59,006 nt of DNA from Pseudonocardiales bacterium (GTDB lineage: Bacteria; Actinomycetota; Actinomycetes; Mycobacteriales; Pseudonocardiaceae). The stretch covers positions 1 through 59,006 of the forward strand of contig JAFAWY010000074.1 of NCBI GenBank assembly GCA_019241525.1, read 5' to 3'. Shown piece by piece: positions 18,935-39,922 of this stretch. The stretch's first letter is position 1. Every line of letters begins with the position of its first letter. The notes beneath the pieces were generated by a model. That model did no database searches, had not been told where the DNA came from, and saw only the letters and a program-made list of their open reading frames with translations. The position numbers were made by a program, and so were the translations under genes.

Positions 18935-19000
18935 CGCCCGCCAGGCGGAACCGCGGTCATCTGAAAGCGCCGGGATGCCAGCTGGAGACAGGAGAACGTC

Positions 19001-19411: not shown

Positions 19412-19508
19412 GTCCGAGGGACCTATGACGCCTCGGTGACTTTGATGCGGCGGGGCCTGGCGGTTTCCCGCTTCGGAACCCGTACGGTCAGTATCGCACC
19501 GCGGACAA

Positions 19509-19566
19509 CTTACCGTTGTCCGAGCATGCACGATCAGCTTACCGTTGTCCGAGCATGCACGATCAG
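19509..19566. repeat. Tandem duplication of a 29-base unit
   Basis: Two perfect copies (19509-19537 and 19538-19566), each beginning CTTACCGTTG and ending CACGATCAG, lie head to tail. The second copy covers the stop codon of the PucR-type gene. The position is just inside the left boundary of the CoM island. Each unit contains GCATGC. The cause is unknown. Confidence 0.85.
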
Positions 19567-21302: not shown

Positions 21303-21312
21303 CGGCAATAGT

Positions 21313-22082: not shown

Positions 22083-23504
22083 CTACTTGCCGTAGCGGGC
22101 CCAATGTGCGGCGAATAGTTCCTCCTCTTCAGCCGGCCGGGGCGGCACCGGGCGAGATACCCAGGTGATATTGACGAAATGGCGAGCGTTGACGTTCTCG
22201 GTGGTGATGTTGCCGCCCCAGGTGCCACAGCTGAGGCTCAGCGTGAACGGTAGTCCGTTGCGGGGGCTGCCGGCTCCCTCGTTGAGGTTCTGGTTAACCA
22301 GCACCCTGGCGGTTCGGGTACCCATCGCCATCGCATCGACGTGTTCGTCGCTGCTCGTGTGGATGCCGCAGGTGTGCCCGGCACCCTGGTATTCGGTGAT
22401 CCTGTTGACCAGCTCAACGGCTCGCCTGATTCCGCCCGAGTAGCGATACAGAGCCAGCACGACCGACAGCTTTTCACCAGAGAACGGGTGCTGCGGCCCA
22501 ACCCCGTCCTCACTGACAATCAGGAAAGTTCGATCCGCGGCGATGGTGAACCCGGCCAGCTCAGCAATCCGAGTAGCCGGCTTGGCGATCACCTCAAGCG
22601 CCGGAATGCCGGCACCGTTGGGCCACATCAGCTGTTGCAGTGCGCAGCGTTGCGCGTCGGAGCAGAGATGGCCACCGGACGCTACCAACCGGTCGACCAA
22701 TGCATCGTAGATGGTCGTCTCGGCCAACACGGCGTTGTCCGCCAGGCAGCTGGTGGCGTAATCAAAGGTCTTCGCCGTGGCGATCGCGCTCGCCGCGTCG
22801 TCGAGATCGGCAGTCTCGTCGACCACGTGTACGGCGTTGCCGACGCCGACCCCGTAGGCGGGCGTACCTGAGCTGTAGGCGGCATGCACCATTGCGTGGC
22901 CACCAGTAGCGACGATCAAGTCTGCCTGGCGCATCAGCTCCTGGGTCGCCGACAGCGACGGTGCTGAGATCACCTGCACCAAGTCGGCGGGTGCGCCAAC
23001 TTGTTCGCAGGCCTCGCGCATGTAGCCGACGACGGCCGCGGTGGTGCGTTTGGTGCGCGGATGCGGGGCCACGATGATCGCGTTACGTCCCTTGAGGGCA
23101 AACAGGGCCTTCACCGGCGGGGTGGCATCCGGTCCGGTCGTCGGAATCAGTGCTGCGACCACCCCTACCGGCTTCGCGATCAACACCAAGCCGCGCTCGG
23201 GATCTTCGGAGACCACTCCCGCAGTGCGCAGCGAGCGCATATCCCTGAGTACGCCAAGCACCCGTTTGTTGATCTTGATTACTTTATCGGCGTAGTTGCC
23301 GAACCCGCCCTCCTCGACGGCAAGCTGCGCCAGCGCCTCTGCGCGGTCCTTACGGGCCACTGCCCACGCCACGGCGGTCACCAGCTCGTCGACCTGTTCC
23401 TGGCTGTAGTCGGCGATCGCGCCTTGCGCTATTCGCGCCCGCGTGACCATTGACGGCACGTCATCGCTCATGGCGTCAACAGTCTCGCGTAGTGACATCC
23501 TCAT
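22083..23504 (-). CDS. Acylating (CoA-dependent) aldehyde dehydrogenase, sulfoacetaldehyde-dehydrogenase-like
   Basis: The enzyme oxidises an aldehyde with NAD(P)+ and CoA to an acyl-CoA. Its 473 residues follow the acylating subfamily: AKPVGVVAALIPTTGPDATP, GGHAMVHAAYSSGTPAYGVG, and FDYATSCLADNAV with the nucleophile Cys253 where non-acylating enzymes have a different context. The closest pattern I know is sulfoacetaldehyde dehydrogenase (SauS type). In this setting its aldehyde may carry a sulfonate, for example an oxoethyl-CoM, or be a simple short aldehyde. It is divergent from the 2-KPCC gene. ATG 23471 is a possible shorter start. Confidence 0.82.
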   Translation of the reverse strand: MRMSLRETVDAMSDDVPSMVTRARIAQGAIADYSQEQVDELVTAVAWAVARKDRAEALAQLAVEEGGFGNYADKVIKINKRVLGVLRDMRSLRTAGVVSEDPERGLVLIAKPVGVVAALIPTTGPDATPPVKALFALKGRNAIIVAPHPRTKRTTAAVVGYMREACEQVGAPADLVQVISAPSLSATQELMRQADLIVATGGHAMVHAAYSSGTPAYGVGVGNAVHVVDETADLDDAASAIATAKTFDYATSCLADNAVLAETTIYDALVDRLVASGGHLCSDAQRCALQQLMWPNGAGIPALEVIAKPATRIAELAGFTIAADRTFLIVSEDGVGPQHPFSGEKLSVVLALYRYSGGIRRAVELVNRITEYQGAGHTCGIHTSSDEHVDAMAMGTRTARVLVNQNLNEGAGSPRNGLPFTLSLSCGTWGGNITTENVNARHFVNITWVSRPVPPRPAEEEELFAAHWARYGK

Positions 23505-23622
23505 GATTCGGCACCACAGGACAAACCTAGGAATAGCCCTTGTCCATCAAGGACATCACCGGCCATCTCGGCAGCGCATAAAGTCGGTTCGGGTTGACCG
23601 GCACGACAAGGACGGTGGGTCT
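23505..23622. promoter_or_regulatory. Divergent intergenic region between aldehyde dehydrogenase and 2-KPCC genes
   Basis: About 118 bases separate the two divergent starts and must hold both promoters. No clear palindrome or -35/-10 pair could be assigned. A frame continuous with the 2-KPCC gene is open through it but does not match the family. Confidence 0.4.
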
Positions 23623-25191
23623 GTGGATATCTGGCGCAAGCAGTTCAACCTCGCTGAATGGAACAACCTCATTGAGGCGAGCCTGGCTGATGCCGATTCC
23701 GAGCCGTTGTTCAACCTGGCCGGCGAGGAGGCCATCTACGACGCCGTGTTCGTGGGCGGTGGTGCGGGAGGCCGGTTCGGCGCGGCGTATCTGAAAGCCA
23801 TGGGCGGTCGTCCTTTGATCATCGATGCCTGGCCATTCCTGGGCGGATCGTGCCCACACCAGGCGTGCGTGCCGCACCACCTATTCTCGGATGCTGCCGC
23901 TGAGCTTGATCTCATGCGGTGGTTTTCCGATGAGCTGTTCTTCCCCAAGTTCGATGCTTCCCGCGCGAGCATCCTGCAGATGGTGAAGCTGTTCGTCGCC
24001 GGACGCAGCACTGCGCATGCGTTCATGAACTGGCAGACCAAGGAGCAATTAGAGGTCGAGTACGTCCTGAACGCACGTGCGACCATCGTCGATCGGCACA
24101 CCGTGCGCGCAGGTGGGCGAACGTTCCATGGACGCAATCTCGTGCTCGGCATGGGTGCCCGACCGGTATATCCGGATATTCCCGGTCTCCAGCTGCGCGG
24201 TATCTACGACTTTGTCAGCTTGGTCGAGGAGTTGGACTACGAGCCGACGCGCTGCGTCATCATCGGCGGCAGCAAGGTCGCCATGGAGTACGGGGCGTTT
24301 TTCCACGCAACCGGATGCGACACCACGATCGTGACGCGTTCGCCCCTGATGCGGGCGCGCAGCCTGCACCATGTCGACGAGGATCTGCGGCGCTACGTGG
24401 TAGAAGGCATGCGCAAGCGTGGCATGGTGATTTACGAAGGCGCGGTTCCCCTCTCGGTGAACGGCAAAGATTCAGCAGGCAGCGTCACAGTAAGGTTGGC
24501 CAACGGTGACGTGGTGGACCTGGAGACCGACTTCGTCTTTATCGCCACCGGGGAACGTCCGAACTCCGCGGAAGCGCAAGAGGTTCTCGGTGTCGCGGTT
24601 GGTCCCACCGGGCGGGTGATCGTCGATAAGACAATGCAAACGACCGTTCCGAACGTGTACGCGATCGGGGACATGATCGATGGACCCATGGAGATGTTCA
24701 AAGCGCGCAAATGTGGCGTGACGGCTGCCCGCAACATCATGGGAGATCACATCGAGTTTGACTTCACCGAGTACCCGGATTTCCTGCACACCACTTACGA
24801 GGTTACCTGGGTGGGTTTGACTGAGGCGGAGGCTCGAGCGGAATACGAGGAAGTCGTCATCATCCAGATGCCACCCTATGTCGAAGGGCTGGACACTGAA
24901 AATCTGCCGCTGCCGTGTTCGGACCGGTCAATGCTTTACGCCTTCAGCAAGCCTGAGCTGAGCGGTTTCCAGAAACTGGTGGTGGATGGGACCTCCCGCA
25001 GGGTTCTTGGTGCGCACCACGTCGGTTACGGCGCCAAGGACGCCTTCCAGTACCTGGACTACCTGATCCACCGGCCAGAGGGGCTGACGATTGATGAGCT
25101 TGGCTGGATGAACGAGCTGTTCCTCAATCCCGAGCATTTTATCCAGCTATCCCGTCTGCGGGCCGGGCGCCGTAAGCTCGTCGACCTGTAG
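23623..25191 (+). CDS. xecC: 2-oxopropyl-CoM reductase (carboxylating), 2-KPCC
   Basis: 2-KPCC cleaves 2-ketopropyl-CoM with NADPH and adds CO2 to the enolate, giving acetoacetate and free CoM. The 522-aa flavoprotein matches the Xanthobacter enzyme (523 aa) over its whole length. The redox pair is GGSCPHQACVPHH (Cys77, Cys82). The hallmark substitution of the usual His-Glu dyad is kept: Phe500 and His505 in LFLNPEHF. The sulfonate-binding arginines also seem kept (Arg51 in GGRFG, Arg362 in FKARK). GTG 23623 (VDIWRKQFNLAEW) fits the family start; the frame is open 60 codons upstream. It converges on the F420-type gene. Confidence 0.93.
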   Translation: MDIWRKQFNLAEWNNLIEASLADADSEPLFNLAGEEAIYDAVFVGGGAGGRFGAAYLKAMGGRPLIIDAWPFLGGSCPHQACVPHHLFSDAAAELDLMRWFSDELFFPKFDASRASILQMVKLFVAGRSTAHAFMNWQTKEQLEVEYVLNARATIVDRHTVRAGGRTFHGRNLVLGMGARPVYPDIPGLQLRGIYDFVSLVEELDYEPTRCVIIGGSKVAMEYGAFFHATGCDTTIVTRSPLMRARSLHHVDEDLRRYVVEGMRKRGMVIYEGAVPLSVNGKDSAGSVTVRLANGDVVDLETDFVFIATGERPNSAEAQEVLGVAVGPTGRVIVDKTMQTTVPNVYAIGDMIDGPMEMFKARKCGVTAARNIMGDHIEFDFTEYPDFLHTTYEVTWVGLTEAEARAEYEEVVIIQMPPYVEGLDTENLPLPCSDRSMLYAFSKPELSGFQKLVVDGTSRRVLGAHHVGYGAKDAFQYLDYLIHRPEGLTIDELGWMNELFLNPEHFIQLSRLRAGRRKLVDL

Positions 25192-25231
25192 CTGCTGGGC
25201 TGTCCCTTATATTTGCGATATTTGCGCGCCC

Positions 25232-26155
25232 TCATATTTGCGGACTCAGGCTGGCCAGCAGAGCTCGGGTTCGCCGTAGGCTCGACTCTGGATCGCCTAC
25301 CGGGAACATAACCGCCCACAGCTCTGTGACGCCGATGCCGGCGTAGCGCCGGAGCTGCTGTTCCACATGGGACTCCGGCCCAGCCACGACCAGGGCGCCG
25401 ACTGATGTCACACCCTCACGCTCGAACAGCCTGCGGTAGTTGTCCAACCCCTGGTAGCGAGCGAAGACCTGCTCGGCCGCGGTGCGCGCCAGATCGACGT
25501 CGTCGCAGACCGCCACGGGCAGGGCCGCAACGATCCGGGGCTGCCTGCCAGCTGCCGCCGCCTGGACCCCAGGCACGATGCCGTCTGCCAGGCTGCGTAG
25601 GCCAGCCAGCCAGGTCACGACGCCATCGGCAAATTCCCCGGCTACCCGCACCATTCTCGGCGACAGTGCGCCGACCAGAATCGAGACCGGAGCCGTGCCC
25701 GGCACCGTGAATCCTCCGTCTACCTGGTAGAAGGAGCCCCGGTAGGTCACGCGGCCTTCGCGGAGCAGCGGTCCGAGCACGGAGAGGTACTCCCGCATGT
25801 GCTGGGCCGGGCTGGTGTAGGGAATCCCATGCAGGTCTTCGATCACAGGGCGGTGGGACACGCCGACCCCGAGGGTCAGCCGGCCGCCGCAGATTGCCTG
25901 CGTCGTGGCCGCCTGCTGAGCCAGGGACAGGGGATGGCGCGGATAGGTGGGTACGACGCCCACCCCGAGCTCTATCCGGCTCGTTTGACTGCCCGCTACG
26001 GCCAGGACGCTCAGCGCATCGACGCCGCGTGAGAAGTGAGCGGACCAGGCCGAGGGGAAACCGTCTGCTTCGGCGTGGCGAGCCTCGTGGACGATCTCCC
26101 GTGGTGATGTCGGCGCGCCAACGGGCTCGCCACCGATGCCTATCGCGATGCGCAT
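25232..26155 (-). CDS. LLM-class (probably F420-dependent) oxidoreductase, 307 aa
   Basis: The luciferase-like TIM barrel is indicated by MRIAIGIGGEPVGAPTSPRE, SRIELGVGVVPTYPRHPLSL, AQQAATTQAICGGRLTLGVG and a C-terminal GVTELWAVMFPVG. These match actinobacterial F420-dependent family members rather than FMN monooxygenases. The start at ATG 26155 has a GGAGGTGG site. It follows the second lyase gene by 40 bases on the same strand, so it is probably the last gene of the CoM biosynthesis operon. Its role there is unknown; a reductive step is possible. Confidence 0.8.
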   Translation of the reverse strand: MRIAIGIGGEPVGAPTSPREIVHEARHAEADGFPSAWSAHFSRGVDALSVLAVAGSQTSRIELGVGVVPTYPRHPLSLAQQAATTQAICGGRLTLGVGVSHRPVIEDLHGIPYTSPAQHMREYLSVLGPLLREGRVTYRGSFYQVDGGFTVPGTAPVSILVGALSPRMVRVAGEFADGVVTWLAGLRSLADGIVPGVQAAAAGRQPRIVAALPVAVCDDVDLARTAAEQVFARYQGLDNYRRLFEREGVTSVGALVVAGPESHVEQQLRRYAGIGVTELWAVMFPVGDPESSLRRTRALLASLSPQI

Positions 26156-26195
26156 CTTTAGTCCACCTCCGGCCGTGAGCGCCAACAGCTGTTGT

Positions 26196-27671
26196 CTACG
26201 GCTGCCTCGCATCACCGATCGCTTGCTGGGCAGCCGCGATGAGCGCTTGCTCGGTGGCCTGGAAATGCTCCCGCCGGGTGCGAGCCTCTCGACCGAGATC
26301 GGTGGCATCGGAGGCGCATGCGGCGGCCATCCGGCAGACCTCCGCGGGAGCGGCGCCCCCGGCAGCGGTGCGCGAGCGGACCACCTCCCGCGGATCCAGT
26401 ACCCGTGCCAGCGGGCCGGCATCCAGGCCTAGTGGTTGGCCAAGCACCGCGACGGCAGCTGCATCGAGCGCGGCGGGATCCAGATCGACTCCGCGTAGTC
26501 CTTGCTCCACAGCCGTTCGTACGGCATGACCGACAACGTGGTAGGCGCTGCGGTAATCCAATTTGCACGACTGCAGGAGGTACTCGGCAAGGTCCGAAGC
26601 TTGCGCGAAGCTGCCTACCAGCACCGACCATAGGCGTTCAGGATGAACGTGCAACGTGCGGACCACGCCGCTGGCCAGCCGGGTAGTGCGGACCGCGCCG
26701 GCCAGCGCGCGCGGAACCTCACCGTAGGCGAAGATCAGATTGTCGCTGCGGGCCGACGGACTTTTGTTGAATGCCAGTAGTCCAGAAAGCCGGCCGATCA
26801 TCACCCCCGATGCGCCTCGGATCATGGTGAGCGCATAAGGGTTTCGCTTCTGCGGCATGAGCACGCTTGAGCGGCTGTAAGCATTGTCGACTGTGACATA
26901 GCCAAATTCCGGACTGGCCCAGATCTCCAGATCCTCCGCCAGCTTTCCCTGGGTGATGAGCAGGCTCGAGCAGGCCCCGAGAGCGCTGATAAGACCGTCC
27001 GTCTGCCACATCGCGTCGCGGGTGTGCTCGATAACAGAACTGAAGCCGAGCAGCGCAGCGATGTGAGAGCGGTCGGTGAGCAGCGCTGTCCCGTTCACCC
27101 CGCCCGCGCCGCCTGGGCTGGCGTCTACCCAGGTGAGGGAATCAGTCAAGCGCCGCCCGTCACGCAGCACCGGATAGGCGAAGGACAATACATAGTGACC
27201 GAACGTGCTCGGCTGCGCATGCTGAAGGTAAGTCTGATCCACCATCCACGTCTCGCGGTGCTGGCCGGCTAATCTGGCGAGTTCGGTGGCGAGTTCGCTC
27301 GCTGCCTGAATAAGGTCGGTGAGCAGCTCCCGCAGGTGCAGCCGGAAGGCGATCCGCATGGCCTCCCGACGCGGGCGGCCGGCATGCAACCAGCCCGCAG
27401 CGTCACCTATTCGGTCAGCGAAATAGTGTTCTCGGGAGTTATAGATCTCGCCATGGGACGGGTCGTAAGGGAATTCTTCAGCGGGCACGTCGACAATGTC
27501 GAGCAGCAGCTTGAGCAGCTGGCGCGCAGGTTCCTCGGGCACCACCCTGGCAGCCCACAAGTCAAGTACATGCGCAAGGTCGGCCAAAGTAAGCCCGCGG
27601 TGGACTAGTGGCGCGTCCGCTATCTCTAACGCGTAGCCGGCATCAATCAGCTCCTCGGCCGGTCCAGTCAC
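26196..27671 (-). CDS. Aspartase/fumarase-superfamily lyase, argininosuccinate-lyase-like (CoM biosynthesis XcbC/XcbD type)
   Basis: The superfamily signature is SSVLMPQKRNPYALTMIRG, with TYLQHAQPSTFGHYVLSFAY as the catalytic histidine region and GGAGGVNGTALLTDR before it. The length (491 aa) and order resemble argininosuccinate lyase, but no arginine-biosynthesis genes are near. In Xanthobacter two members of this superfamily serve CoM biosynthesis, one eliminating phosphate from phosphosulfolactate. Which of the two lyases here does that step cannot be decided. The GTG start overlaps the PLP-gene stop (GTGA) and has an AGGAGG site. Confidence 0.82.
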   Translation of the reverse strand: MTGPAEELIDAGYALEIADAPLVHRGLTLADLAHVLDLWAARVVPEEPARQLLKLLLDIVDVPAEEFPYDPSHGEIYNSREHYFADRIGDAAGWLHAGRPRREAMRIAFRLHLRELLTDLIQAASELATELARLAGQHRETWMVDQTYLQHAQPSTFGHYVLSFAYPVLRDGRRLTDSLTWVDASPGGAGGVNGTALLTDRSHIAALLGFSSVIEHTRDAMWQTDGLISALGACSSLLITQGKLAEDLEIWASPEFGYVTVDNAYSRSSVLMPQKRNPYALTMIRGASGVMIGRLSGLLAFNKSPSARSDNLIFAYGEVPRALAGAVRTTRLASGVVRTLHVHPERLWSVLVGSFAQASDLAEYLLQSCKLDYRSAYHVVGHAVRTAVEQGLRGVDLDPAALDAAAVAVLGQPLGLDAGPLARVLDPREVVRSRTAAGGAAPAEVCRMAAACASDATDLGREARTRREHFQATEQALIAAAQQAIGDARQP

Positions 27672-28669
27672 GTCCTGCCTCCTGTGGCCGTGAAGAGGGT
27701 CGGAACACCGCCGGTGACGAGAAAGACGAGGGGACTGATCGCGCGGGAGTGGCTGACCACACCGCTTGACGCGCTGATCAGCGCAGCCATCGCCTTCGCT
27801 CCGAATACTGGATCGAGGAAGACGCCTTCGGTACGAGCGACCAGGCGCGCAGCATCGGTGCCCGCCGCGGAGGCAATGCCATAGCCAGGGCCGAGGAACC
27901 CGTCGATCACGGTGACGGCGCGGCTGGTGACGCCGGCCTCACCGTGCGCGCCAGCGCTGAGCAACTTCTCGACCCCTGCTGCCAGCTTGCCGACTTGCTG
28001 AAGGCATTGCGGCGCGGGCCGGCTGACCGTCACCCCTACCACCTCGTAGGGCAGCTGGAGCCACCAAGCCCCTGCCAGTAACCCGCCCTGGGTGCCACCC
28101 GACCCGGTGGCCAGCCATAACTGTCGGGGCCGCAGGCCGGTGGCGAGCAGCTGCTCGGCCAGCTCCAGACTCGCGTGGGCGTAACCAAGCGCACCAATCG
28201 GGGTGGCGCCGCCTCGAGGCAGCACGCACGGGGTGCGCCCGTCACGGCGCAGTTCGTCGGCGAGTGTGGCAATACCTGCGTCGACCGACGCCCGCTCGGG
28301 GCTGCCGGTGAACGTGATTCGCGCTCCGGCCAGTTCCGCAAGCAGCAAGTTGCCGGTGGCCGGCACAGGTGACCCGTAGCAGACCAAGTAGGCGTCCAGG
28401 CCGCACCGGCGGGCGGCGAGTGCCGCAAGCATCGCCCAGTTCGACTGAGGACCGGAACCAGTGACCAGGCAGTCGCTGCCCTGACTCAGCGCATCACCTA
28501 ACAGATACTCCAGCGCCCGTACCTTGTTCCCACCGAGGCCGAAACCAGTGAGGTCGTCACGCTTGAACCAGATTTCGGCGCCGAGCATGGTGGATAGCTC
28601 CGGCGCCGGTCGAAGCGGTGTCGGCACGGTGGCCAGCTCTACCCGTGGCAGGTTCCACAGGCCCGTCAC
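27668..28669 (-). CDS. PLP-dependent D-cysteine desulfhydrase/ACC deaminase-like enzyme (CoM biosynthesis XcbE type)
   Basis: This is a fold type II PLP enzyme: IWFKRDDLTGFGLGGNKVRA carries the Schiff-base lysine, TGSGPQSNWAML is the substrate loop, and ATGSGGTQGGLLAG holds the PLP phosphate. The family includes D-cysteine desulfhydrase and ACC deaminase. In the bacterial CoM pathway a PLP enzyme brings in the thiol sulfur, which fits this gene. GTG 28669 gives a four-base overlap with the upstream stop and good spacing to GGAG; GTG 28678 is the alternative. It is coupled to both neighbours. Confidence 0.85.
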   Translation of the reverse strand: MTGLWNLPRVELATVPTPLRPAPELSTMLGAEIWFKRDDLTGFGLGGNKVRALEYLLGDALSQGSDCLVTGSGPQSNWAMLAALAARRCGLDAYLVCYGSPVPATGNLLLAELAGARITFTGSPERASVDAGIATLADELRRDGRTPCVLPRGGATPIGALGYAHASLELAEQLLATGLRPRQLWLATGSGGTQGGLLAGAWWLQLPYEVVGVTVSRPAPQCLQQVGKLAAGVEKLLSAGAHGEAGVTSRAVTVIDGFLGPGYGIASAAGTDAARLVARTEGVFLDPVFGAKAMAALISASSGVVSHSRAISPLVFLVTGGVPTLFTATGGRT

Positions 28670-30021
28670 AGCGGGCACTCCGCTGCCGCTAACACCCGAT
28701 CAATGAAAGCGGTCGTCGCTCCGAGTGCCCGCTGCGGATCCACACATTGGGCGATCTCCGCCGAATTCAGGTGGTTGCTTACCAATGGATCTGTGACCAG
28801 TGCTTCTGTCAAGGTGATGCCGCGTTCGAGGCCGGCCATCGTGGCGTCGTACACCGCTCGCTGTGCCGCATGCTTGCCGATCCGGTCGGCTAATGCGCGC
28901 ATCACGGGCTCGGACAGCACGTAGCCGCCGCCTGCTTCCACGTTGGCCCGCATCCTGCCGGCGTGTACCACCAGGCCTTCCAGCAGCTGCGACGCCAGCT
29001 GCAACGAGACTCCAGTAAGCAGGCACGCTTCCGGTAGTACCACCCATTCGGCCTTCCAGGAACGGCCATCGCGCTCGTGGTCGCTTACCAGGCCCTCGAG
29101 GGTGACGCCTGCATCGGCCCGCACCACCCGCGCCAGCGTGACCAAATGTTCGGACAGCTCGGGATTGCGTTTATGCGGCATGGTGATACTGCCGACTTGC
29201 CCGGGCGTGAACGGCTCGGATACTTCACCGATTTCTGGTCGCTGTAGCTGGTAAATCTCGTTGCCGATCTTCCCTAGCGTGCCGGTCACCAGCGCCAGCA
29301 ACCCGGTGAACTCAGCAATCCGATCCCGTGCGGTGATCCAGGCGATATCCGGAACACCTAACCCGAGCCGCCGCGCGAAGGCGTCGAGCAGTGGCAGCGC
29401 CGCCGCACCCCAAAACTCCATAGTGCCCAATGCGCCACCGAGTTGAACGACCTCCCAACGGCGCCGGCCCTGGGCCAGCCGAGCCCGGTGACGGCGTAGC
29501 TCAGAGGCCCACACTGCTGCCTTGAAGCCGAAGGTGATCGGTAGGCCAGGCTGACCGTGAGTGCGCCCACACATGATCTCATTGCGATACCTGCGAGCTA
29601 GTGAGAGCGTGGCGGCTTCCACCCGGCGCAGGTCACGCTCCAACACGTCACCGACGCGTCGGGCGATCACCGCGGTCCACGTGTCGGAAAGATCTTGGAC
29701 TGTGGCGCCGTAGTAGACCCACTCCCGGGCGTGCGGCGGCAGCACCTCGGTCAGGCACTGGATCAAGCCGAGGGTGGAGTGCCCGGTCGCCCTGGTGGCC
29801 GCGCCGACCAGGTCCAGGTCGAGCAGGGTGACATCCGCGTGGTCTCGGATTGCGCGTGCCGCGTCGGCGGGCACCAGGCCGACGTCAGCTTGGGCCTCAG
29901 CGAGCGCAGCGAGAATATCGAGCCAGGATTGGAAGCGTCCGTGGTCATCAAAAAGCCGGCGCAGCTCGCCAGTCGCCCACAGATGACCGTAGACAGCGGA
30001 ATCGATGAGGTGGGCTCCCAT
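28666..30021 (-). CDS. Aspartase/fumarase-superfamily lyase, adenylosuccinate-lyase/CMLE-like (CoM biosynthesis XcbC/XcbD type)
   Basis: The signature GSITMPHKRNPELSEHLVTL is present. Upstream are YYGATVQDLSDTW and CGRTHGQPGLPITFGFK, the latter with the catalytic-region histidine of adenylosuccinate lyase and carboxymuconate cycloisomerase. The length is 451 aa, as expected. An AGGTGA site nine bases before the ATG overlaps the stop of the preceding gene. By its place in the operon it is one of two candidates for phosphate elimination from phosphosulfolactate to sulfoacrylate. No purine or protocatechuate genes are nearby to suggest the classical roles. Confidence 0.83.
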   Translation of the reverse strand: MGAHLIDSAVYGHLWATGELRRLFDDHGRFQSWLDILAALAEAQADVGLVPADAARAIRDHADVTLLDLDLVGAATRATGHSTLGLIQCLTEVLPPHAREWVYYGATVQDLSDTWTAVIARRVGDVLERDLRRVEAATLSLARRYRNEIMCGRTHGQPGLPITFGFKAAVWASELRRHRARLAQGRRRWEVVQLGGALGTMEFWGAAALPLLDAFARRLGLGVPDIAWITARDRIAEFTGLLALVTGTLGKIGNEIYQLQRPEIGEVSEPFTPGQVGSITMPHKRNPELSEHLVTLARVVRADAGVTLEGLVSDHERDGRSWKAEWVVLPEACLLTGVSLQLASQLLEGLVVHAGRMRANVEAGGGYVLSEPVMRALADRIGKHAAQRAVYDATMAGLERGITLTEALVTDPLVSNHLNSAEIAQCVDPQRALGATTAFIDRVLAAAECPL

Positions 30022-30030
30022 CTACGCCGG

Positions 30031-31739: not shown

Positions 31740-31878
31740 GCCGTGACCATACGATCTAGGCGCCGGCTGGTCTGTGTCCTTCGAGCACCAACACCAGAGT
31801 TTCCTTCGTCCCAGGCGAACGTGGGAAGTGCGGTGATCGCTGCTTAGCGTCAGCACCTAGGGACTAAGGAGGCCGTCC
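31740..31878. promoter_or_regulatory. Divergent promoter region between CoM biosynthesis and epoxide-metabolism operons
   Basis: These 139 bases separate the first genes of the two main operons, so regulation of CoM supply and CoM use probably meets here. AGGAGG lies seven bases before the GTG at 31879. I could not assign -35/-10 hexamers or an operator with confidence. Confidence 0.5.
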
Positions 31879-33237: not shown

Positions 33238-33953
33238 GCCAGCGGGTGGCAGTGGTGACCGGCGGAGCGTCGGGTATCGGTCGGGCGACGGTCGCCCGGC
33301 TCCTGGATGACGGTTTCCAACTCGCTGTGTTTGATCTGTCACCGGACCCTGTTGCGTCGGTGCTCGCCATCAATGTCGACGTGTCTGACGCGACCGGCGT
33401 TGAGCGCGCTACGAATAAGGTGATCGCCGAGTTCGGGCGGATTGACGTGCTGGTGAATAACGCCGGTATCAGTGGCTCGCCACAAGCCACCACCTGCCAC
33501 GAGACACCGATCCTAGAATGGGACCGGGTGTTTGCGATCAATGTCCGCGGTCCGTTCCTTTGCGCACGTGCCGCATTGCCGGTAATGATCCGTCAGGGTA
33601 CCGGGCACGTCATCACGGTGGCGTCGGTTGCTGGGATGGTCGCATTTCCTGGCCGTTGTGCCTACACCGCCTCGAAGGGCGCCGCGTTGCAGTTCGCCAA
33701 GTCGATCGCGGTGGATTATGCCGCTGCGGGCATCCGTTCCAATGCCGTCTGCCCGGGAATGGTGCAGACACCGATGACCCAGTGGAGGTTGGATATTCCC
33801 GAGCTTCGGGCAGCGGTTGAGGCCCGCGTCCCGCTTGGCCGGGTTGCGCAACCGGATGAGATCGCTGATGCGATCGCCGTCCTGGCCTCCAACCGGCTCA
33901 GCTACGTCACCGGTGCCGCTTTCGTGATTGACGGCGGTTGGACCGCACTGTAG
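33234..33953 (+). CDS. xecD: 2-(R)-hydroxypropyl-CoM dehydrogenase-like SDR
   Basis: This short-chain dehydrogenase oxidises the (R)-hydroxyalkyl-CoM made from an epoxide to the ketoalkyl-CoM. TGGASGIGRATVARL binds NAD and YTASKG is the catalytic Tyr-Lys pair. The two arginines that bind the CoM sulfonate in the Xanthobacter R-enzyme appear conserved (Arg141 in FPGRCAY, Arg185 in TQWRLD), and the region from AFPGR to NAVCPGMVQTPMTQW is very close to it. The GTG overlaps the upstream stop (GTGA), so it is translationally coupled to the flavoprotein gene. Confidence 0.9.
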   Translation: MSQRVAVVTGGASGIGRATVARLLDDGFQLAVFDLSPDPVASVLAINVDVSDATGVERATNKVIAEFGRIDVLVNNAGISGSPQATTCHETPILEWDRVFAINVRGPFLCARAALPVMIRQGTGHVITVASVAGMVAFPGRCAYTASKGAALQFAKSIAVDYAAAGIRSNAVCPGMVQTPMTQWRLDIPELRAAVEARVPLGRVAQPDEIADAIAVLASNRLSYVTGAAFVIDGGWTAL

Positions 33954-34008
33954 CCGACCTGAAATAGCCCTGGGATAGCTCTATCACGAGAGAGGAAGAA
34001 CGAACCCT

Positions 34009-34782
34009 ATGACCGGACAGCTCGAAGGACGGGTCGCGCTGATCACCGGAGCCGGCTCAGGGATCGGTCGGGCGGCGGCCCAACGCTTCGCCGCCGAGGG
34101 CTGCGCGGTGGCGGTAGTGGACCTGGTGGCGGCTGCTGCGCAGGACACAGTCGACAAGATCATCGCTAATGGTGGCCGGGCGATCGCGTGCCCAGCCAAC
34201 GTCACTGCTGATGCCGAGGTGCGCTCAGCGGTGGAACGCACTGTGGAGGCGTTCGGGCGCCTCGACGTCCTCTACAACAACGCCGGAGTGAACAGCAGCG
34301 GCTCGGTCGTCGACGCCACCGAAGATGACTGGGACCGCTGCATGGGAGTCAACGTTAAAGGCACGTTCCTCTGTTCTCGGGCAGCCGTTTCACACCTGGC
34401 GGCAAGTGGATCGGGTGCGATAGTCAACCAGGCCTCGGTCGCAGCATTGGTCGGGATACCCAACTTCGCCGCCTACTGCGCCGCCAAGGGAGCGGTGGTG
34501 GCGCTGACCCGCTCCATGGCGGTCGACCTTGCGCCGCGCGGGATCCGAGTGAACGTGATCTGCCCCGGCACCGTGTTCACTCCTCTGATGGAACCACTGC
34601 TGAGGGCCCGGGGGGACGGCGATCTCGAGGCTGGTTTGGCCAAGACTACGGTCAAGTACCCGATCGGCCGGCTGGGCAGCCCCGAGGAGATTGCTTCGGC
34701 CGCGCTGTTCCTGGCCAGCGATCAAGCTTCTTTCCTGACCGGGTCGGTCCTGACGGCCGATGGCGGCATGACCGCCCAATGA
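34009..34782 (+). CDS. xecE: 2-(S)-hydroxypropyl-CoM dehydrogenase-like SDR
   Basis: A second short-chain dehydrogenase of 257 aa with TGAGSGIGRAAAQRF, YCAAKG, and the stretches ASVAALVGIPNFAAYC and VKYPIGRLGSPEEIASAALF that resemble the S-specific enzyme. The lysine before YPIG, a sulfonate ligand in the Xanthobacter S-enzyme, is kept. The arginine three residues earlier appears replaced by threonine, with a lysine at the position before. It may therefore bind CoM slightly differently or prefer another adduct. A GAGAGGAAG site precedes the ATG. Having both isoforms would allow conversion of both epoxide enantiomers. Confidence 0.82.
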   Translation: MTGQLEGRVALITGAGSGIGRAAAQRFAAEGCAVAVVDLVAAAAQDTVDKIIANGGRAIACPANVTADAEVRSAVERTVEAFGRLDVLYNNAGVNSSGSVVDATEDDWDRCMGVNVKGTFLCSRAAVSHLAASGSGAIVNQASVAALVGIPNFAAYCAAKGAVVALTRSMAVDLAPRGIRVNVICPGTVFTPLMEPLLRARGDGDLEAGLAKTTVKYPIGRLGSPEEIASAALFLASDQASFLTGSVLTADGGMTAQ

Positions 34783-34808
34783 CGTGACGGCACAGTGAGA
34801 GGTCTGTC

Positions 34809-35729
34809 ATGGGGTTTCATCTAGATCCCGACAAACGGGTACCTCTTGACCGGGCAGCCACGCTGGTCGCCGACGGAGCCCTGGTGGCGTTGGGCGGGGG
34901 CCTGTCCGCTCGGCTGCCGATGGCGCTGGTCCGGGAGCTGATCCGGCAGGGCCGGCGACGGCTGCATGTCGTGGGGTCGGCCCACGGGATTGATGTAGAC
35001 CTGCTCGTGGCCGCCGGTGCCATCGCGGTGTGCGAGGAGAGCTATGTCGGTTTCGAGCAGGACCTCGGCCTGGCGCCGGCGTTCCGGCGGGCTGCCGAGC
35101 GCGGCACCATCGAAGTCCGGGAGAGCTGCTGCGACACCATCCTCATGCAGCTGCGGGCAGCCGAATTCGGGCTGCCTTTCCTGCCGGTGCGGGGAGTCCG
35201 GGGCTCCGACATCCTTCGGCTGCACCCGGAGTACGGCGAGGTGCGGTGCCCCTTTACCGCCGAAACTCTGGTTGCCGTACCTCCGTTGCGGCCAGACATC
35301 GTCCTGATCCACGCTCTGCTTGCCGACCGCCAGGGCAACCTTCATCTAGAGCAGCCCTACGTGCTCGACGAGCGCTTCGCTGCTGCTTCCCGGAATGTGG
35401 TCGCAACCGCAGAACGGATCGTCGGCACCGAGGAAGTCGCCGCCGCCGGGATCACCATTCCAGGCCACCTCGTTGCAGCCGTGAGCGAGGTGCCCTTCGG
35501 CGCGCACCCGTCATCCTGCTACCCCGCGTACGCCTATGACCGGCCGCATCTAGCCGACTATGTCCGAGCTGCGGCGGCCGGAGACGGCGAGCTGGCGTGC
35601 TACCTGGATCGGTTCGTCACCGGGGTACCCAATGAAGAGGGCTACCGCAAGGTCGTCGGCGAGGAGCAACTCAGCGCGCTGGGCCGCTGGTCAGACTCCA
35701 CCAAGGTATGGAAAGGGCTGTTTACGTGA
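34809..35729 (+). CDS. CoA-transferase family I, alpha subunit (glutaconate CoA-transferase-like)
   Basis: The subunit has VADGALVALGGGLSARLPMA near the N-terminus and PDIVLIHALLADRQGNLHLE later, the pattern of glutaconate/3-oxoacid CoA-transferase alpha chains. With the next gene it would move CoA from a donor thioester to the acid released in this pathway, such as acetoacetate or a CoM-linked acid. A GAGAGG site precedes the ATG. The beta subunit follows with a four-base overlap. Confidence 0.87.
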   Translation: MGFHLDPDKRVPLDRAATLVADGALVALGGGLSARLPMALVRELIRQGRRRLHVVGSAHGIDVDLLVAAGAIAVCEESYVGFEQDLGLAPAFRRAAERGTIEVRESCCDTILMQLRAAEFGLPFLPVRGVRGSDILRLHPEYGEVRCPFTAETLVAVPPLRPDIVLIHALLADRQGNLHLEQPYVLDERFAAASRNVVATAERIVGTEEVAAAGITIPGHLVAAVSEVPFGAHPSSCYPAYAYDRPHLADYVRAAAAGDGELACYLDRFVTGVPNEEGYRKVVGEEQLSALGRWSDSTKVWKGLFT

Positions 35730-36592
35730 GCAGGGCTGGCAGCTTTTCCCTTGATGAGTGGTTCGTGGTGGCACTCGCGCGCACGATCCGGGACGAAGAG
35801 GTCACGTTTCACGGCTTCGGCAGCCCCTGCGCGCAAGTCGCCATGCATGTCGCCAAGCGCACTCACGCGCGGCGCATGTTGCTGGTGGAGGGAGCGACCT
35901 ACGCCTGTAACCCCGACCCGCCGTTTATCCCCCCCACTGGCAACGATGCCAGCCTGCAACGTGGCGCGGCTTACCGGATGCGGTTTGAGGAGTTCTTCGA
36001 CGCGGCCATCCGGGGTGACGTCGACCGGATGTTCCTGTCCGGAGGCCAGATCGACGGCTACGGCAACACCAACGTCACCGCGATCGGTACCGATGACTAT
36101 CCGACCACCTCGCCGAAGGTCAAGCTCGGCGGCGGTGGTGGAGGGTGCAACCTGGCCGCCACGATTGGCCACCTCACACTGTGGACAACCCGGCACCGTT
36201 CCGGGCGTGCGTTGGTGCAGCACTGCGACTTCATCACCGACATGGGTCACCGCACGCCTGCGGGCAGCCGCTCCGAGCTGGGCTACTCCGGCGGCGGTCC
36301 CCAGTGGCTGGTCACTGAACTCGGCATTTTCGACTTTGATACCGAGGGGGACAGCCAAGGCGCAGCCCGGCTGCGCCAGCTTTTCCCGGACGTCGACGTG
36401 GAGACGGTGCGTGCGGCAACCGGCTTCGAATTGCGGGTTGCCCCCGACCTGAGCTCGGTGCGGCCGCCCAGTGCGGCGGAGTTAGCGGTGCTACGCGGCA
36501 TCGACCCACTCGGGGTGCGTCGTTCAGAATTCTCCGCAGCGGAGTTGCGGCGCACCTTCAGCTATTCCGCCAGTGGCCGATGCCAATGCTGA
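35726..36592 (+). CDS. CoA-transferase family I, beta subunit
   Basis: The beta chain begins at GTG 35726, which overlaps the alpha stop (GTGA) and has a GGAAAGGG site; the six extra codons upstream are probably not used. Landmarks are RMLLVEGATYACNP, which may hold the catalytic glutamate, MFLSGGQIDGYGNTN, KVKLGGGGGGCNLAATIGH and LVTELGIFDFD. All are typical of glutaconate-type beta subunits. It works as a heteromer with the alpha chain. Confidence 0.87.
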   Translation: MSRAGSFSLDEWFVVALARTIRDEEVTFHGFGSPCAQVAMHVAKRTHARRMLLVEGATYACNPDPPFIPPTGNDASLQRGAAYRMRFEEFFDAAIRGDVDRMFLSGGQIDGYGNTNVTAIGTDDYPTTSPKVKLGGGGGGCNLAATIGHLTLWTTRHRSGRALVQHCDFITDMGHRTPAGSRSELGYSGGGPQWLVTELGIFDFDTEGDSQGAARLRQLFPDVDVETVRAATGFELRVAPDLSSVRPPSAAELAVLRGIDPLGVRRSEFSAAELRRTFSYSASGRCQC

Positions 36593-38652
36593 GCGGCCTC
36601 GAGGCGGTATTCGCGCCCCGCCGGGTCGCCCTGGTGGGGGCGTCGGAACGACCCGGCACGATGGGGGAGCTGTTCTGGCGCAACCTCGCCAGCTTTCCCG
36701 GTGAAGTCGTCCCCGTGACGCCGTCCAGACGCAGCCTTGGAGGGGTCAAGGCATACCCGAGCCTGGCATCGGTCGACGGCGAAGTGGACCTCGCCGTCGT
36801 TGTGGTGCGCGCCGCCGAGGTTCCGGGCGTGATCCGTGATGCCGGTGTCAAAGGCGTGCCAGCCGCGCTCGTGATCAGCGGTGGCTTCGCCGAGACAGGG
36901 CCGGACGGAGCCGCCCTGCAGTCCGAGGTGGTGGCGATAGCCCGGGCTGGTGGGGTGCGGATCGTCGGACCCAACTGCTTCGGGGTCCAGAACTGCGATC
37001 TCCCGCTGAACGCGTCGATGGCTACCGGGTTGCCGCCCGGGGGTGGCGGGATCACACTGGCGACCCAATCGGGGTCGTACGGCATGGCGATCCACACGCT
37101 GGGCCTTGACGAGCGCACCCGATTCGCCAAGGTGTACGCGATTGGCAACAAGGCCGACATTGGCGACGCCGAGGTCTTGCGTTACCTCGCCACCGACCCA
37201 GCCAGCCGCACGCTGTGCTTCTTTCTGGAATCGCTGCCCGATGGCCGGGAGTTCTGCGATGCGGCCCGAATGGCCGGGGCTGCGGGCAAGCCGGTGATCG
37301 TTGCTCGAACCGGGCGCACACCGGCGGGGATTCGTGCCGCACAGTCGCACACCGCGGCACTCGCGGGCAGTGCACGGATCTGGCGAGCCGCCTTACAGCA
37401 GGCCGGTGTATTGGTGGCCCGATCTGGCCTGGAGATGCTCGACGCGGCCCGTGCGCTGGATGCGCAGCCACCACCTGCAGGCAACCGTATCGCGGTGGTG
37501 ACCAATTCTGGTGGAACCGGTGTCGAGCTTGCCGACTTGCTCGCCGATGAGGGACTGGCTGTACCCGAGCTGTCCGCAGCGTTGCAGGATAAACTTCGGC
37601 CCGTCCTACCGAAGTTCGCCAGCGCAGCCAACCCGGTCGACATCACGCCGGTGTGGCGACGTTTTGCCGAGTTATACCCGCGGGTGGTCGACGAGTTGGC
37701 CCATTCCGGCGAGGTGGACGCGATCGTCCCTGTGCTGCTCCAGCGGGCGGCCGTCGACGAGACCGTAGCGGCAGGTCTGCGTGACGCGGTTACCCGGCTT
37801 CGCAGCGCTGGCGTGGGCATTCCGGTGTACGTGTGCTGGGTGGCGCCTCGTAGCGCCCGAGCCAACGCTGACTTGCTGCAGGAGGCCGGTGTGCCTTGTT
37901 TCGAATGGCCGGAGCGCACCGCCCGTGCGGTGGGGCATGCGGTCCGCTTCGGCGTGGCCAGTCCGCGGCCGGCGGCACCGTTGCCCGCCCTGCCGGGGCC
38001 TATCGCCAGCGATGACCTGCCCGCCAGGCACCTCGATCCCGACCAGGGTGCCAACCTGCTGCGCACCGTCGGCATAGCCACGGTCGAATCAATCACCTGC
38101 ACCGGTGCATCCGGTGCGGTCGCGGCGGCCCAGCGAATCGGCTATCCGGTGGTGTGCAAAGTGGTGCACCCAGATCTGGTGCACCGCAGCAACGCCGGGG
38201 GAGTCCGTCTCAACCTCAATGGCCCGGATGCTGTTCGAGCGGCGGCGCAGGCCCTGCTGGGCCTCGCCGAGGGCGCTTGTGTGCAGGTCCAACCTCAGCT
38301 CGTCGGTGTGGAGGTCGCCGTAGGTGGTTTACGCGACGCCCAATTCGGGCCGATCGTCATGATCGGCCTGGGTGGTATCTGGATCGAGGTTATCGGTGAT
38401 GTCGTCTTCGGCCTGGCCCCGCTGGCGCCTGATGAGGCGCATCGCCTGATCGCCGGCTTACGGGGCCACGCCGTGCTCACCGGGGCCCGCGGCCGTGAGC
38501 CCGTCAATCTCGATGCGCTGGCCGCCACGGTATCCGCGGTAGGAAACCTGCTGGTAGCCAGGCCAGAAGTGGTGGACCTTGATCTCAACCCCCTGCTGGC
38601 CACCTCGAGAGCTGCCGTGGCGGTGGACTGGCGAATCACGGTTCGCGGGTAG
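36580..38652 (+). CDS. ADP-forming acyl-CoA synthetase (acetate-CoA ligase family), 690 aa
   Basis: The single chain fuses the alpha and beta parts of NDP-forming acyl-CoA synthetases. A CoA-binding domain (PRRVALVGASERPGTMGELF, VRIVGPNCFG) is followed by a ligase domain with the phosphohistidine loop AAQSHTAALAGS and a C-terminal ATP-grasp domain (GYPVVCKVVHPDLVHRSNAG, GPIVMIGLGGIWIEVIGD). It makes an acyl-CoA from the free acid, CoA and ATP. It overlaps the beta-subunit gene by 13 bases. Its presence beside a CoA-transferase gives two ways to activate the product acid. Confidence 0.88.
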   Translation: MPMLSGLEAVFAPRRVALVGASERPGTMGELFWRNLASFPGEVVPVTPSRRSLGGVKAYPSLASVDGEVDLAVVVVRAAEVPGVIRDAGVKGVPAALVISGGFAETGPDGAALQSEVVAIARAGGVRIVGPNCFGVQNCDLPLNASMATGLPPGGGGITLATQSGSYGMAIHTLGLDERTRFAKVYAIGNKADIGDAEVLRYLATDPASRTLCFFLESLPDGREFCDAARMAGAAGKPVIVARTGRTPAGIRAAQSHTAALAGSARIWRAALQQAGVLVARSGLEMLDAARALDAQPPPAGNRIAVVTNSGGTGVELADLLADEGLAVPELSAALQDKLRPVLPKFASAANPVDITPVWRRFAELYPRVVDELAHSGEVDAIVPVLLQRAAVDETVAAGLRDAVTRLRSAGVGIPVYVCWVAPRSARANADLLQEAGVPCFEWPERTARAVGHAVRFGVASPRPAAPLPALPGPIASDDLPARHLDPDQGANLLRTVGIATVESITCTGASGAVAAAQRIGYPVVCKVVHPDLVHRSNAGGVRLNLNGPDAVRAAAQALLGLAEGACVQVQPQLVGVEVAVGGLRDAQFGPIVMIGLGGIWIEVIGDVVFGLAPLAPDEAHRLIAGLRGHAVLTGARGREPVNLDALAATVSAVGNLLVARPEVVDLDLNPLLATSRAAVAVDWRITVRG

Positions 38653-38812
38653 CCGACGCCGGCGGATCGGTCCTGCGAGGACGAGTTTCAAGATTTCGAT
38701 TTGGCCCTGCGTTACGGAGCATTGACGCTGCTGTGTCTTTACTGTGGTCCCCGTCACATTTGGGCTGGGCCTCCGCGTGCCCAGCACCGCTAGCGACAGG
38801 AGGACAGAAGGT

Positions 38813-39922
38813 ATGCGCATCGGATCACAAGATGTACTGCTACCCACGACCATGGTGGGTAACTACCCCAATCCACGCTGGTATGACGGGCAAGCATATG
38901 CCGTCTATCCCAAGGGCGAATTCATCTATGACGCGATTAGTCGAGAGGCCCACGAGGACGCCATTGGGGCGATTGTCCGCGACCAGGAAGCCGCCGGTCT
39001 GGACATTATCTGCGACGGCCGCATCAACGGCGGCGACTCGCCATACGGACAGATCCTCTACCACTACGTGGAGCGGATGACCGGCTATAAGCTGTCCGGT
39101 CCACCGATCGGGCTCCCGATCTATTCGACGCTGTTCGCGCCTACTTGTGTGGGTGAGGTGACTCGGGAGCATCCGTTCCACATGGCGACTCTCCGAGCCG
39201 CCCGCAAGGCAACCAAGAAGCCGATCAAGATTTCCTACACTGGCATCCAAGTGCTCGCGGCGGCCACGAACAATCAATACTACTCGGAGACCAAAGAATT
39301 GGCGATGGCGATCGCCAAGGCTTTCAACGAAGACTTCAAGGAGCTCGCCGACAACGGTTGCGATATTATCCAGCTCGATGAGTTTGTTTGGCCCTATGGG
39401 ATGGGCGACTGGGAGATTGAAGTCCTCAACGCTGCGGTAGAAGGCGCGGGATGCCAGTTCTGGGTACACACGTGCTGGGGAAACTACTCGGGAACGCCCG
39501 GCTACTTCCCTGATGAGGAGGAGCGCGAGTTCGGTGCCTGGGTGCTCGACCGCAGGCCGGCGGCGGCTCCCGCACCTGCCCGTGCCCAAGCGATCTTCCC
39601 CCAGGTGCTCGACGCTAACATCGACGTGTTGAATTACGAGGTAGGCCGGACCGGTCCGGACGACCTCAAACCGCTACGCGATCACAACTGGTCAAAGGAC
39701 TTCACGGCTGGAATCATCGACGTGAAGTCGACCGTGACCGAGACTGCCGAAGAAGTTGCCGACCGGATCCGGCAGGTGCTGGAATACGTTCCCGCCGAGC
39801 GGCTCGGGCTGTCCACCGACTGCGGCTTGATCAACTTGCCACGCATGCTTGCGGCGAGCAAGCTCCGTGCACTCGCTGACGGTGCTGCTCTGGTACGCGA
39901 GGAGTTAGCCGGCAATCAGTAA
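38813..39922 (+). CDS. xecA: Epoxyalkane:coenzyme M transferase (MetE-like zinc enzyme)
   Basis: EaCoMT opens an epoxide with the CoM thiolate to form a hydroxyalkyl-CoM. The 369-aa protein is a short MetE-type barrel with three zinc ligands at the expected places: His219 and Cys221 in FWVHTCWGN and Cys337 in LSTDCGLI. Other close stretches are TTMVGNYPNPRWYDGQ, CDGRINGGDSPYGQILYHY and DVKSTVTETAEEVADRI. AGGAGG nine bases before ATG 38813 decides the start. A gap of 160 bases separates it from the synthetase gene, so it may have its own promoter. It is the last gene of the island. Confidence 0.92.
   Translation: MRIGSQDVLLPTTMVGNYPNPRWYDGQAYAVYPKGEFIYDAISREAHEDAIGAIVRDQEAAGLDIICDGRINGGDSPYGQILYHYVERMTGYKLSGPPIGLPIYSTLFAPTCVGEVTREHPFHMATLRAARKATKKPIKISYTGIQVLAAATNNQYYSETKELAMAIAKAFNEDFKELADNGCDIIQLDEFVWPYGMGDWEIEVLNAAVEGAGCQFWVHTCWGNYSGTPGYFPDEEEREFGAWVLDRRPAAAPAPARAQAIFPQVLDANIDVLNYEVGRTGPDDLKPLRDHNWSKDFTAGIIDVKSTVTETAEEVADRIRQVLEYVPAERLGLSTDCGLINLPRMLAASKLRALADGAALVREELAGNQ

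Follow-up and report, generated by a model that had tools for sequence, protein, structure and literature searches.

A probable coenzyme M-dependent epoxide-assimilation island of the actinobacterial etn type in a Pseudonocardiales genome

Introduction

Genes for coenzyme M (CoM) synthesis and for CoM-dependent epoxide metabolism lie together on one contig of a Pseudonocardiales bacterium, which raises the question of whether they form a single route for epoxides and where the epoxide would come from. The stretch analyzed, called the window here, is 59,006 nucleotides long and is the complete contig JAFAWY010000074.1 (C49; G, C and L denote genomes, contigs and loci) of a 4.7-Mb draft genome (G000) that is 98% complete. 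The first-pass annotation placed both functions in one actinobacterial island, and the genes that it named are intact there. Our analysis indicates that the locus is very probably an etn-type island, as known from actinobacteria, for the CoM-dependent assimilation of epoxides, a reading drawn from intact genes, protein families, key residues and shared neighbourhoods. The earlier observation is correct and its interpretation right in outline, and the layout of the island is already known.

The island contains 17 genes and spans 19563-39922, with no internal stops in the named genes. Its true start is 19563, not 22083, because the PucR/CdaR and MEDS regulators match those of known clusters and belong to the unit. 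The leftward side holds the PucR and MEDS genes, an acylating aldehyde dehydrogenase (ALDH), 2-ketopropyl-CoM oxidoreductase/carboxylase (2-KPCC), an F420-dependent luciferase-like monooxygenase (LLM) class oxidoreductase, xcbC, xcbE, xcbD, an XcbA-family (DUF7714) gene and comA. The genes running rightward are, in order, a CoA-disulfide-reductase (CoADR)-like flavoprotein, two short-chain dehydrogenases (SDR1 and SDR2), CoA-transferase subunits a and b (CoATa and CoATb), an ADP-forming ligase and etnE. The CoADR-like, LLM and DUF7714 proteins and both regulators are additions to the first-pass annotation, and the corrected starts, all probable, are 23623 for 2-KPCC, 38813 for EtnE and 26155 for the LLM gene.

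Epoxide-metabolism genes

Percentages are identities to proteins of Nocardioides sp. JS614, Mycolicibacterium chubuense NBB4 and Xanthobacter autotrophicus Py2.

38813..39922, + strand (likely start 38813): EtnE, epoxyalkane:CoM transferase (EaCoMT); 84% JS614, 71% NBB4, 48% Py2 XecA; ATG start with GGAGGA upstream
23623..25191, + strand (likely start 23623): 2-KPCC; 588 bits to PDB 1mo9; 52% Py2, 63% NBB4
33234..33953, + strand: SDR1, (R)-2-hydroxypropyl-CoM dehydrogenase (R-HPCDH) type; 240 bits to 2cfc; 51% Py2 XecD, 61% NBB4; R141/R185
34009..34782, + strand: SDR2, etn-type hydroxyalkyl-CoM dehydrogenase; 73% JS614, 68% NBB4, 50% Py2 XecE

The first-pass annotation had raised a grouping with non-CoM paralogues as the outcome that would count against it. 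EtnE falls within a 27-row EaCoMT clade (support 100/99) that includes the NBB4 and Py2 proteins and is separate from the MetE-like rows, in a midpoint-rooted tree with 13 MetE-like rows picked from 53 and long branches flagged by the tool. The proposed zinc ligands H219, C221 and C337 are present in the alignment to Py2, but they do not discriminate EaCoMT: the same His/Cys/Cys set occurs in every one of the 53 MetE-like rows obtained from 54 loci (none came from L058), so the ligands carry no weight alone.

The 2-KPCC signature, unlike these ligands, does carry weight. The protein scores 588 bits against 1mo9 and 112 bits against the next different enzyme. Alignment to Py2 shows R51, C77, C82, H132, M135, R362, F500 and H505, which bears out the annotated residues: a CX4C pair (C77/C82), a Phe-His (F500/H505) replacing His-Glu, and an Arg pair (R51/R362), which we take to be the redox pair, the Phe-His and the CoM-site arginines, respectively. 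The corresponding positions in Py2 numbering (R56, C82, C87, H137, M140, R365, F501, H506) are kept in the window, in NBB4 and in all 20 full-length relatives, and two truncated relatives keep all five positions that they cover.

The two dehydrogenases had been called R- and S-type. The R-type call stands for SDR1, which scores 240 bits against 2cfc and 167 bits against the next match. As annotated, R141/R185 align with Arg152/Arg196 of R-HPCDH, presumably the sulfonate site, and the catalytic S131-Y144-K148 are present. Both arginines are kept in 10/10 loci read; L013 has Arg in the catalytic Tyr column. The family calls for 2-KPCC and SDR1 are based on scores and residues rather than trees. 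The S-type call is weak. Lys is kept in SDR2, Thr stands at the XecE Arg position (we assume that these are R211/K214 of 4gh5 and a sulfonate site, and that the Py2 dehydrogenases bear the xec names used here), and Thr plus Lys also occur in 10/10 actinobacterial relatives, picked at >60% identity. SDR2 is therefore named etn-type.

CoM-synthesis genes

26196..27671, - strand: XcbC, phosphosulfolactate lyase of CoM synthesis; NF052535 439 bits (cut-off 575); loop SSVLMPQKRNP
27668..28678, - strand: XcbE, pyridoxal-phosphate (PLP) enzyme of CoM synthesis; NF052537 322 bits, its best family (cut-off 450); 57% JS614, 45% Py2
28666..30021, - strand: XcbD, 3-sulfopropionylcysteine synthase (NCBIfam name); NF052536 724 bits (cut-off 600); 65% JS614
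30031..30957, - strand: XcbA-family protein, DUF7714; NF052538 446 bits (cut-off 150); 66% NBB4
30954..31856, - strand (start perhaps 31739): ComA/XcbB, phosphosulfolactate synthase; Pfam ComA 247 bits; TIGR03849 218 bits (cut-off 280); 63% JS614, 36% Py2

All five genes are neighbours on one strand. The ComA, two lyases (XcbC and XcbD) and PLP enzyme (XcbE) of the first-pass annotation were each matched to their families, although XcbC, XcbE and ComA score under the cut-offs. The XcbA-family gene is the sole match to its family in the genome and is probably the 308-aa XcbF1 of PMC8727900.

Accessory genes, regulators and genome context

19563..21308, - strand: PucR/CdaR-family regulator, EtnR1-like; Pfam HTH_30 and GGDEF_2; 54% to NBB4 MYCCH_RS29055, named EtnR1 in PMC8784404
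21313..22011, - strand: MEDS-domain protein, EtnR2-like; Pfam MEDS 154 bits; 56% JS614, 48% NBB4 EtnR2
22083..23504, - strand (start may be 23471): CoA-acylating ALDH (SauS-like); NF047625 545 bits (cut-off 600); 76% JS614
25232..26155, - strand (likely start 26155): F420-dependent LLM-class oxidoreductase; TIGR03564 299 bits (cut-off 234); 70% to the JS614 neighbour gene
31879..33237, + strand: CoADR-like flavoprotein, Cys44 kept; TIGR03385 374 bits (cut-off 579); 58% JS614 and NBB4; PDB 6ruz 343 bits
34809..35729, + strand: CoATa; PF01144 90 bits; 71% JS614
35708..36592, + strand: CoATb; PF01144 19 bits, under the cut-off of 23; 70% JS614
36580..38652, + strand: ADP-forming acyl-CoA synthetase (ACS); NF045494 414 bits, under the cut-off of 1200; ATP-grasp and CoA-binding domains; 56% JS614

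The TIGR03564 oxidoreductase recurs near epoxide genes (the window, L006:4956-5891, L014, L021 and L022). The divergent spacer between comA and the CoADR-like gene (31740-31878) holds the stretch CTTCGTCC, followed some bases on by ATGG or GTGG. A similar stretch was seen by eye in the matching spacers of L006, L013 and L014, and it is a candidate regulator site. A common operator motif was sought among five intergenic stretches (ten pairs), where the best 14-base matches carried 2-4 mismatches; the comA/CoADR and MEDS-ALDH spacers gave 2 mismatches, below the minimum of 20 shuffles, and the other pairs were not below theirs.

The GC content of the island is 0.652, with flanks at 0.635 and 0.657. 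The scanned open reading frames of the flanks, some small ones being left out, include SelO, methylguanine-DNA methyltransferase, cation-efflux, AmmeMemoRadiSam and GGT genes, and neither Rfam families nor tRNAs were found in the window. For the 298-aa protein at 18635-19531, Pfam and NCBIfam gave no family; the contig of a congener encodes a relative with 71% identity downstream of etnE (L011:10995-11807).

Distribution of EtnE and its neighbours

A scan of species genomes with patterns from the window EtnE, which detect close relatives only, gave 88 relatives, of which 80 were kept. EtnE at 60-95% identity was found at 26 of the 80 loci, in 25 genomes; those with a name are actinobacterial, and L019 comes from an uncultured bacterium. 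The remaining loci are MetE-like, at 27-33% identity. 2-KPCC is present in 20 of the 25 genomes. Over the 26 loci, whose flanks are often short, neighbours include ACS (20), ComA (17), CoATa (13) and SDR1 (9), and nearly the whole gene set of the island surrounds EtnE in L014 and L017. In an even sample of 397 genomes from the order, EtnE occurs in two, the window's own and G242. The full CoM epoxide route is placed in an actinobacterial lineage with EtnE relatives across several families. A literature search on etnE in actinobacteria found nothing fitting by title or start of abstract, with most subscription journals outside its coverage, and one on the physiology of Mycobacterium sp. SM1 found nothing relevant. 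A second EtnE/MetE-like gene (~30%) lies beside etnE or a MEDS gene in L015, L023, L028 and L030.

A CoM-synthesis operon without EtnE

The XcbA family occurs in 4 of 11 genomes of the genus: G000 and G007 carry the island, and G008 and G010 carry an operon but no EtnE close to that of the window. This operon reads comA-xcbF-xcbD-xcbE-xcbC, then AllG- and AllH-like genes and a CoADR-like gene (32-33%), and beside it, in divergent orientation, lies an AIR-synthase-like gene, whose scores of 254 bits against sll0787 and 168 bits against methanogenesis marker 2 both miss the cut-off. The best EtnE matches in G008 and G010 are fragments at 29-43%, perhaps MetE-like. In the 397-genome set the XcbA family occurs in four genomes (G000, G242, G028, G074), and G028 and G074, from two other families, carry the same operon with no EtnE match at E 1e-80. 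In the family of G028 that genome alone, among 3, has the operon. The loci are L153:9248-18936, L152, L162 and L163; AllH-like and CoADR-like genes are present in three of the four carriers, and the L163 contig ends ~1 kb past AllG.

The window XcbC stands apart from 12 XcbCs of epoxide islands (100/100). It clusters with three of the four from EtnE-less operons (86/92); the fourth, L162, branches outside that group (82/68). The identity of the window XcbC is 61% to that of the G008 operon, 49% to JS614 and 45% to NBB4. The window XcbD lies outside the clade of four EtnE-less XcbDs (99/100). With moderate support, these sequences suggest that the CoM-synthesis set of the window is a mosaic whose XcbC came from the EtnE-less lineage.

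CoM might then serve as more than an alkene cofactor in this group, with the EtnE-less operon making CoM or a near analogue for a non-epoxide use and the island XcbC drawn from that lineage. We regard this proposal as doubtful, because only three of the four EtnE-less XcbCs join that of the window, and because all four carriers have a soluble di-iron monooxygenase (SDIMO), which makes a divergent epoxide transferase possible in them. Nothing fitting such an operon was found in the literature by title or start of abstract; most subscription journals lay outside this coverage, and absence from print is not shown. The operon makes the question of other bacterial uses of CoM testable.

Source of the epoxide

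Several observations weigh against an epoxide-assimilation island. The window encodes no SDIMO, and the genome's four SDIMO-subunit matches are all on contigs C90 and C96; the search of the genome did not extend to CuMMO, AlkB or P450 epoxidases. Because no SDIMO lies in the window, the block alone does not establish alkene oxidation. The enrichment of SDIMOs in genomes with EtnE at ≥60% identity, 16 of the 25 versus 58 of the 396 order genomes without G000 (Fisher p 1e-7), speaks for the island, but the comparison is unmatched: the order set was held to ≥90% completeness, the 25 are unfiltered and from several orders, and Thermocrispum agreste DSM 44070 is counted in both (G426, and G242 in the order set). 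That strain (L031) is also among the nine EtnE genomes without SDIMO. In addition, XcbC, XcbE, ComA and the ALDH score under NCBIfam cut-offs. The JS614/NBB4 homologues do likewise (XcbC 378/399, XcbE 315/310, ComA 217/230; ALDH of JS614 542), the window ComA at 218 bits is slightly under that of NBB4, and for the three Xcb proteins those of Py2 alone pass. The XecE arginine is replaced in SDR2, and the roles given to the CoADR-like and LLM proteins are guesses. Lastly, the island, being on a single contig of a draft genome, could conceivably be mis-binned; this concern is eased because a second metagenome-assembled genome of the genus (Centralia_MAG_342, G007; L154 is identical to L011) carries the EtnE side at 93-98% identity.

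No EtnABCD set adjoins etnE in the window, and the best EtnC match in the genome's two SDIMO regions is 35%. An SDIMO subunit was found within the fetched flanks of one of the 26 EtnE loci (L036), and 12 of the 13 loci with ≥5 kb on both sides have none. For typing, 30 of the 48 SDIMO matches in the EtnE genomes were compared. PrmA-like SDIMOs occur in at least 9 of the 25 genomes; we take the C96 enzyme to be of this type from its gene order. C90-like SDIMOs occur in five, four by alpha subunits at ≥74% and one (G407) by a beta subunit at 97%, and C90-like alpha subunits at ≥74% occur in 2 of 396 background genomes, with eight more at 46-47% (p 1e-5, with slightly different criteria between the sets and related genomes). 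G408 and G415 carry additional alpha subunits of other types. An EtnC-type SDIMO was found in one genome, that of Nocardioides pocheonensis (L013); if C45 is the contig with etnE, the coordinates put the two ~13 kb apart.

In Pseudonocardia OFTM178 (G431:C8), EtnE (60%) at 31.7-32.8 kb and 2-KPCC (79%) at 35.5-37.1 kb are followed, 2.3 kb past 2-KPCC, by a complete C90-like SDIMO operon at 39.4-47.8 kb. Because of this linkage and the enrichment in EtnE genomes, the C90 enzyme is favoured as the likeliest partner monooxygenase of the island, a tentative pairing that is nonetheless quite possible. A candidate that is not EtnABCD can thus be named. The enzyme is group-1-like by TmoB, Rieske protein and 49% identity to XamoA, an assignment that partly presumes the group classification. 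Among plasmid sequences, the best relative of its alpha subunit (73%) comes from Rhodococcus koreensis and carries a toluene monooxygenase annotation, so an aromatic substrate is possible.

The OFTM178 region (G431:C8:20001-60000; L148, L149) also contains, besides EtnE, five EtnE/MetE-like genes (28-47%) around the SDIMO operon, possibly an array of epoxide transferases, together with four PucR-like and two MEDS-like stretches.

PMC8784404 states that almost every actinobacterium in which the EtnR homologues are divergent, Amycolatopsis SYSUP0005 being named, has etnABCD homologues close by. Our finding for SYSUP0005 (A. alkalitolerans; L017, G413) disagrees with that statement: its alpha subunits were found only on contigs other than that of etnE, and they are 77% and 91% identical to the C96 enzyme and 36% to EtnC.

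Proposed function and alternatives

The activities, substrates, C2 branch and regulation that we infer are as follows. CoM would be made from phosphoenolpyruvate, sulfite and cysteine (the last taken from the NCBIfam name of XcbD) by ComA, XcbC, XcbD, XcbE and the XcbA-family protein. EtnE would open a short epoxide with CoM, and SDR1 and SDR2 would oxidize the hydroxyalkyl-CoM. For C3 and longer substrates, 2-KPCC would reductively cleave the ketoalkyl-CoM and add CO2 to give a beta-keto acid, to be activated by the CoA-transferase and ADP-forming ligase. For C2 substrates, 2-KPCC may carboxylate as well, via malonate semialdehyde, as in the published scheme (PMC8727900); alternatively, as a guess, the acylating ALDH and CoADR-like flavoprotein might yield acetyl-CoA. 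The MEDS/PucR pair would control the island, and the epoxide would be supplied from elsewhere, most likely by the unlinked group-1-like (C90) or PrmA-like (C96) SDIMO.

The same genes could instead serve detoxification, with a PrmA-like or group-1-like SDIMO acting on another substrate, making epoxides as side products that the island removes, and with no growth on alkenes. The lack of a linked SDIMO here and at the 12 well-flanked loci fits this account, as do the PrmA-like enzymes in EtnE genomes and a precedent proposed for Methylohalobius (PMC11507031). However, a complete carbon route to CoA esters exceeds what detoxification needs, the MEDS/PucR pair is that of ethene growers (EtnR1/EtnR2, PMC8784404), and the EtnC-type SDIMO of N. 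pocheonensis means that at least one relative is linked. Detoxification is thus possible but rather doubtful.

A narrower alternative makes the C2 epoxide the sole natural substrate, with no part for SDR1 or for the action of 2-KPCC on C3 compounds. The nearest EtnE of known physiology is that of JS614, an ethene/vinyl-chloride grower that shares the ALDH, CoADR, CoA-transferase and ligase and whose stretch has no SDR1; moreover, the published ethene route includes a CoM reductase/carboxylase (PMC6440738), so 2-KPCC is no proof of C3 use. An ethene-only route is nevertheless unlikely, given that SDR1 keeps both R-HPCDH arginines at every locus read and that NBB4, for which the etn system is given as covering C2-C8 alkenes (PMC8784404), also has SDR1. 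That the proteins are ordinary MetE-like, disulfide reductase, SDR and ArgH/PurB paralogues without any part in CoM metabolism is highly improbable. The shared zinc ligands and the three Xcb scores under curated cut-offs would allow it, but the EtnE tree and 2-KPCC signature led us to reject it, and XcbD and XcbA scores over cut-off and the conserved neighbourhood also speak against it.

Comparison with known systems

The etn cluster of JS614 (pNOCA01, L006) has a similar order, with 2-KPCC, MEDS, PucR, LLM, ALDH and xcbC-E-D-F-comA as in the window, and a divergent CoADR-SDR-CoATa-CoATb-ACS-etnE arm. It differs in the SDR1 noted above and in a PAPS-reductase and an insertion sequence (IS) gene, neither of which is in the island. 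Its EtnC alkene monooxygenase lies ~43 kb off on the plasmid, whereas the window has no SDIMO. In the JS614 record etnE is in two overlapping frames (L006:20001-21100), and an IS3 transposase interrupts the PucR-like gene (L006:1871-4939); the record also has another EtnE-like site.

NBB4 (pMYCCH.02, L007) shares the CoM genes, CoADR, SDR, CoA-transferase, ligase, EtnE and MEDS/PucR with the window, and within 20 kb it carries 2-KPCC and an SDR of R-HPCDH type as well. Its etnABCD follows etnE immediately, and the SauS-like ALDH and LLM of the window did not appear in the 41 kb of its sequence examined.

Py2 (pXAUT01 xec/xcb, L008) shares EaCoMT, 2-KPCC, R-HPCDH and CoM synthesis, but identity is 48-52% for the three enzymes, the XecE Arg is not kept, and monooxygenase genes lie a few kb from xecA. 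The first-pass annotation considered the layout unlike that of Xanthobacter. This holds for the Py2 xec/xcb stretch, which lacks the CoA-transferase, ligase and CoADR; it holds less for the genome, where homologues of several such genes sit in other clusters (PMC11507031). On the Py2 plasmid, the interval from xecE to comA holds a two-part XcbA-family match at a place where the gene table is empty (L008:24792-25636).

Methylohalobius crimeensis, set beside the window by description only, likewise has EtnE, CoM synthesis and a MEDS regulator with no alkene monooxygenase; it is a methanotroph in which the epoxide is thought to be made by particulate methane monooxygenase, and its authors propose that a SauS-type dehydrogenase substitutes for XcbA (PMC11507031). 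The window carries both the ALDH and an XcbA-family gene, which speaks against such a stand-in role here.

A CoA-transferase together with an ADP-forming synthetase and an acylating ALDH makes up the layout already known from actinobacterial ethene/vinyl-chloride clusters (JS614, NBB4), described for vinyl-chloride mycobacteria (PMC8727900) and for methanotrophs (PMC11507031). Apart from the monooxygenase, the etn-cluster set is present with etnE in the window: CoM genes, CoADR, SDR, CoA-transferase pair, acyl-CoA synthetase and MEDS/CdaR. PMC6440738 assigns the CoA-transferase/synthetase to ethene metabolism, in a route with the CoM reductase/carboxylase, and 2-KPCC with R/S-HPCDH to propene metabolism. 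Both sets occur together in the window, in NBB4 within 20 kb and in L014 and L017, so their co-occurrence characterizes the actinobacterial family and is not peculiar to the window. Thus, 2-KPCC and the CoA-activation genes travel together in this lineage, even though that article makes CoA activation ethene-only.

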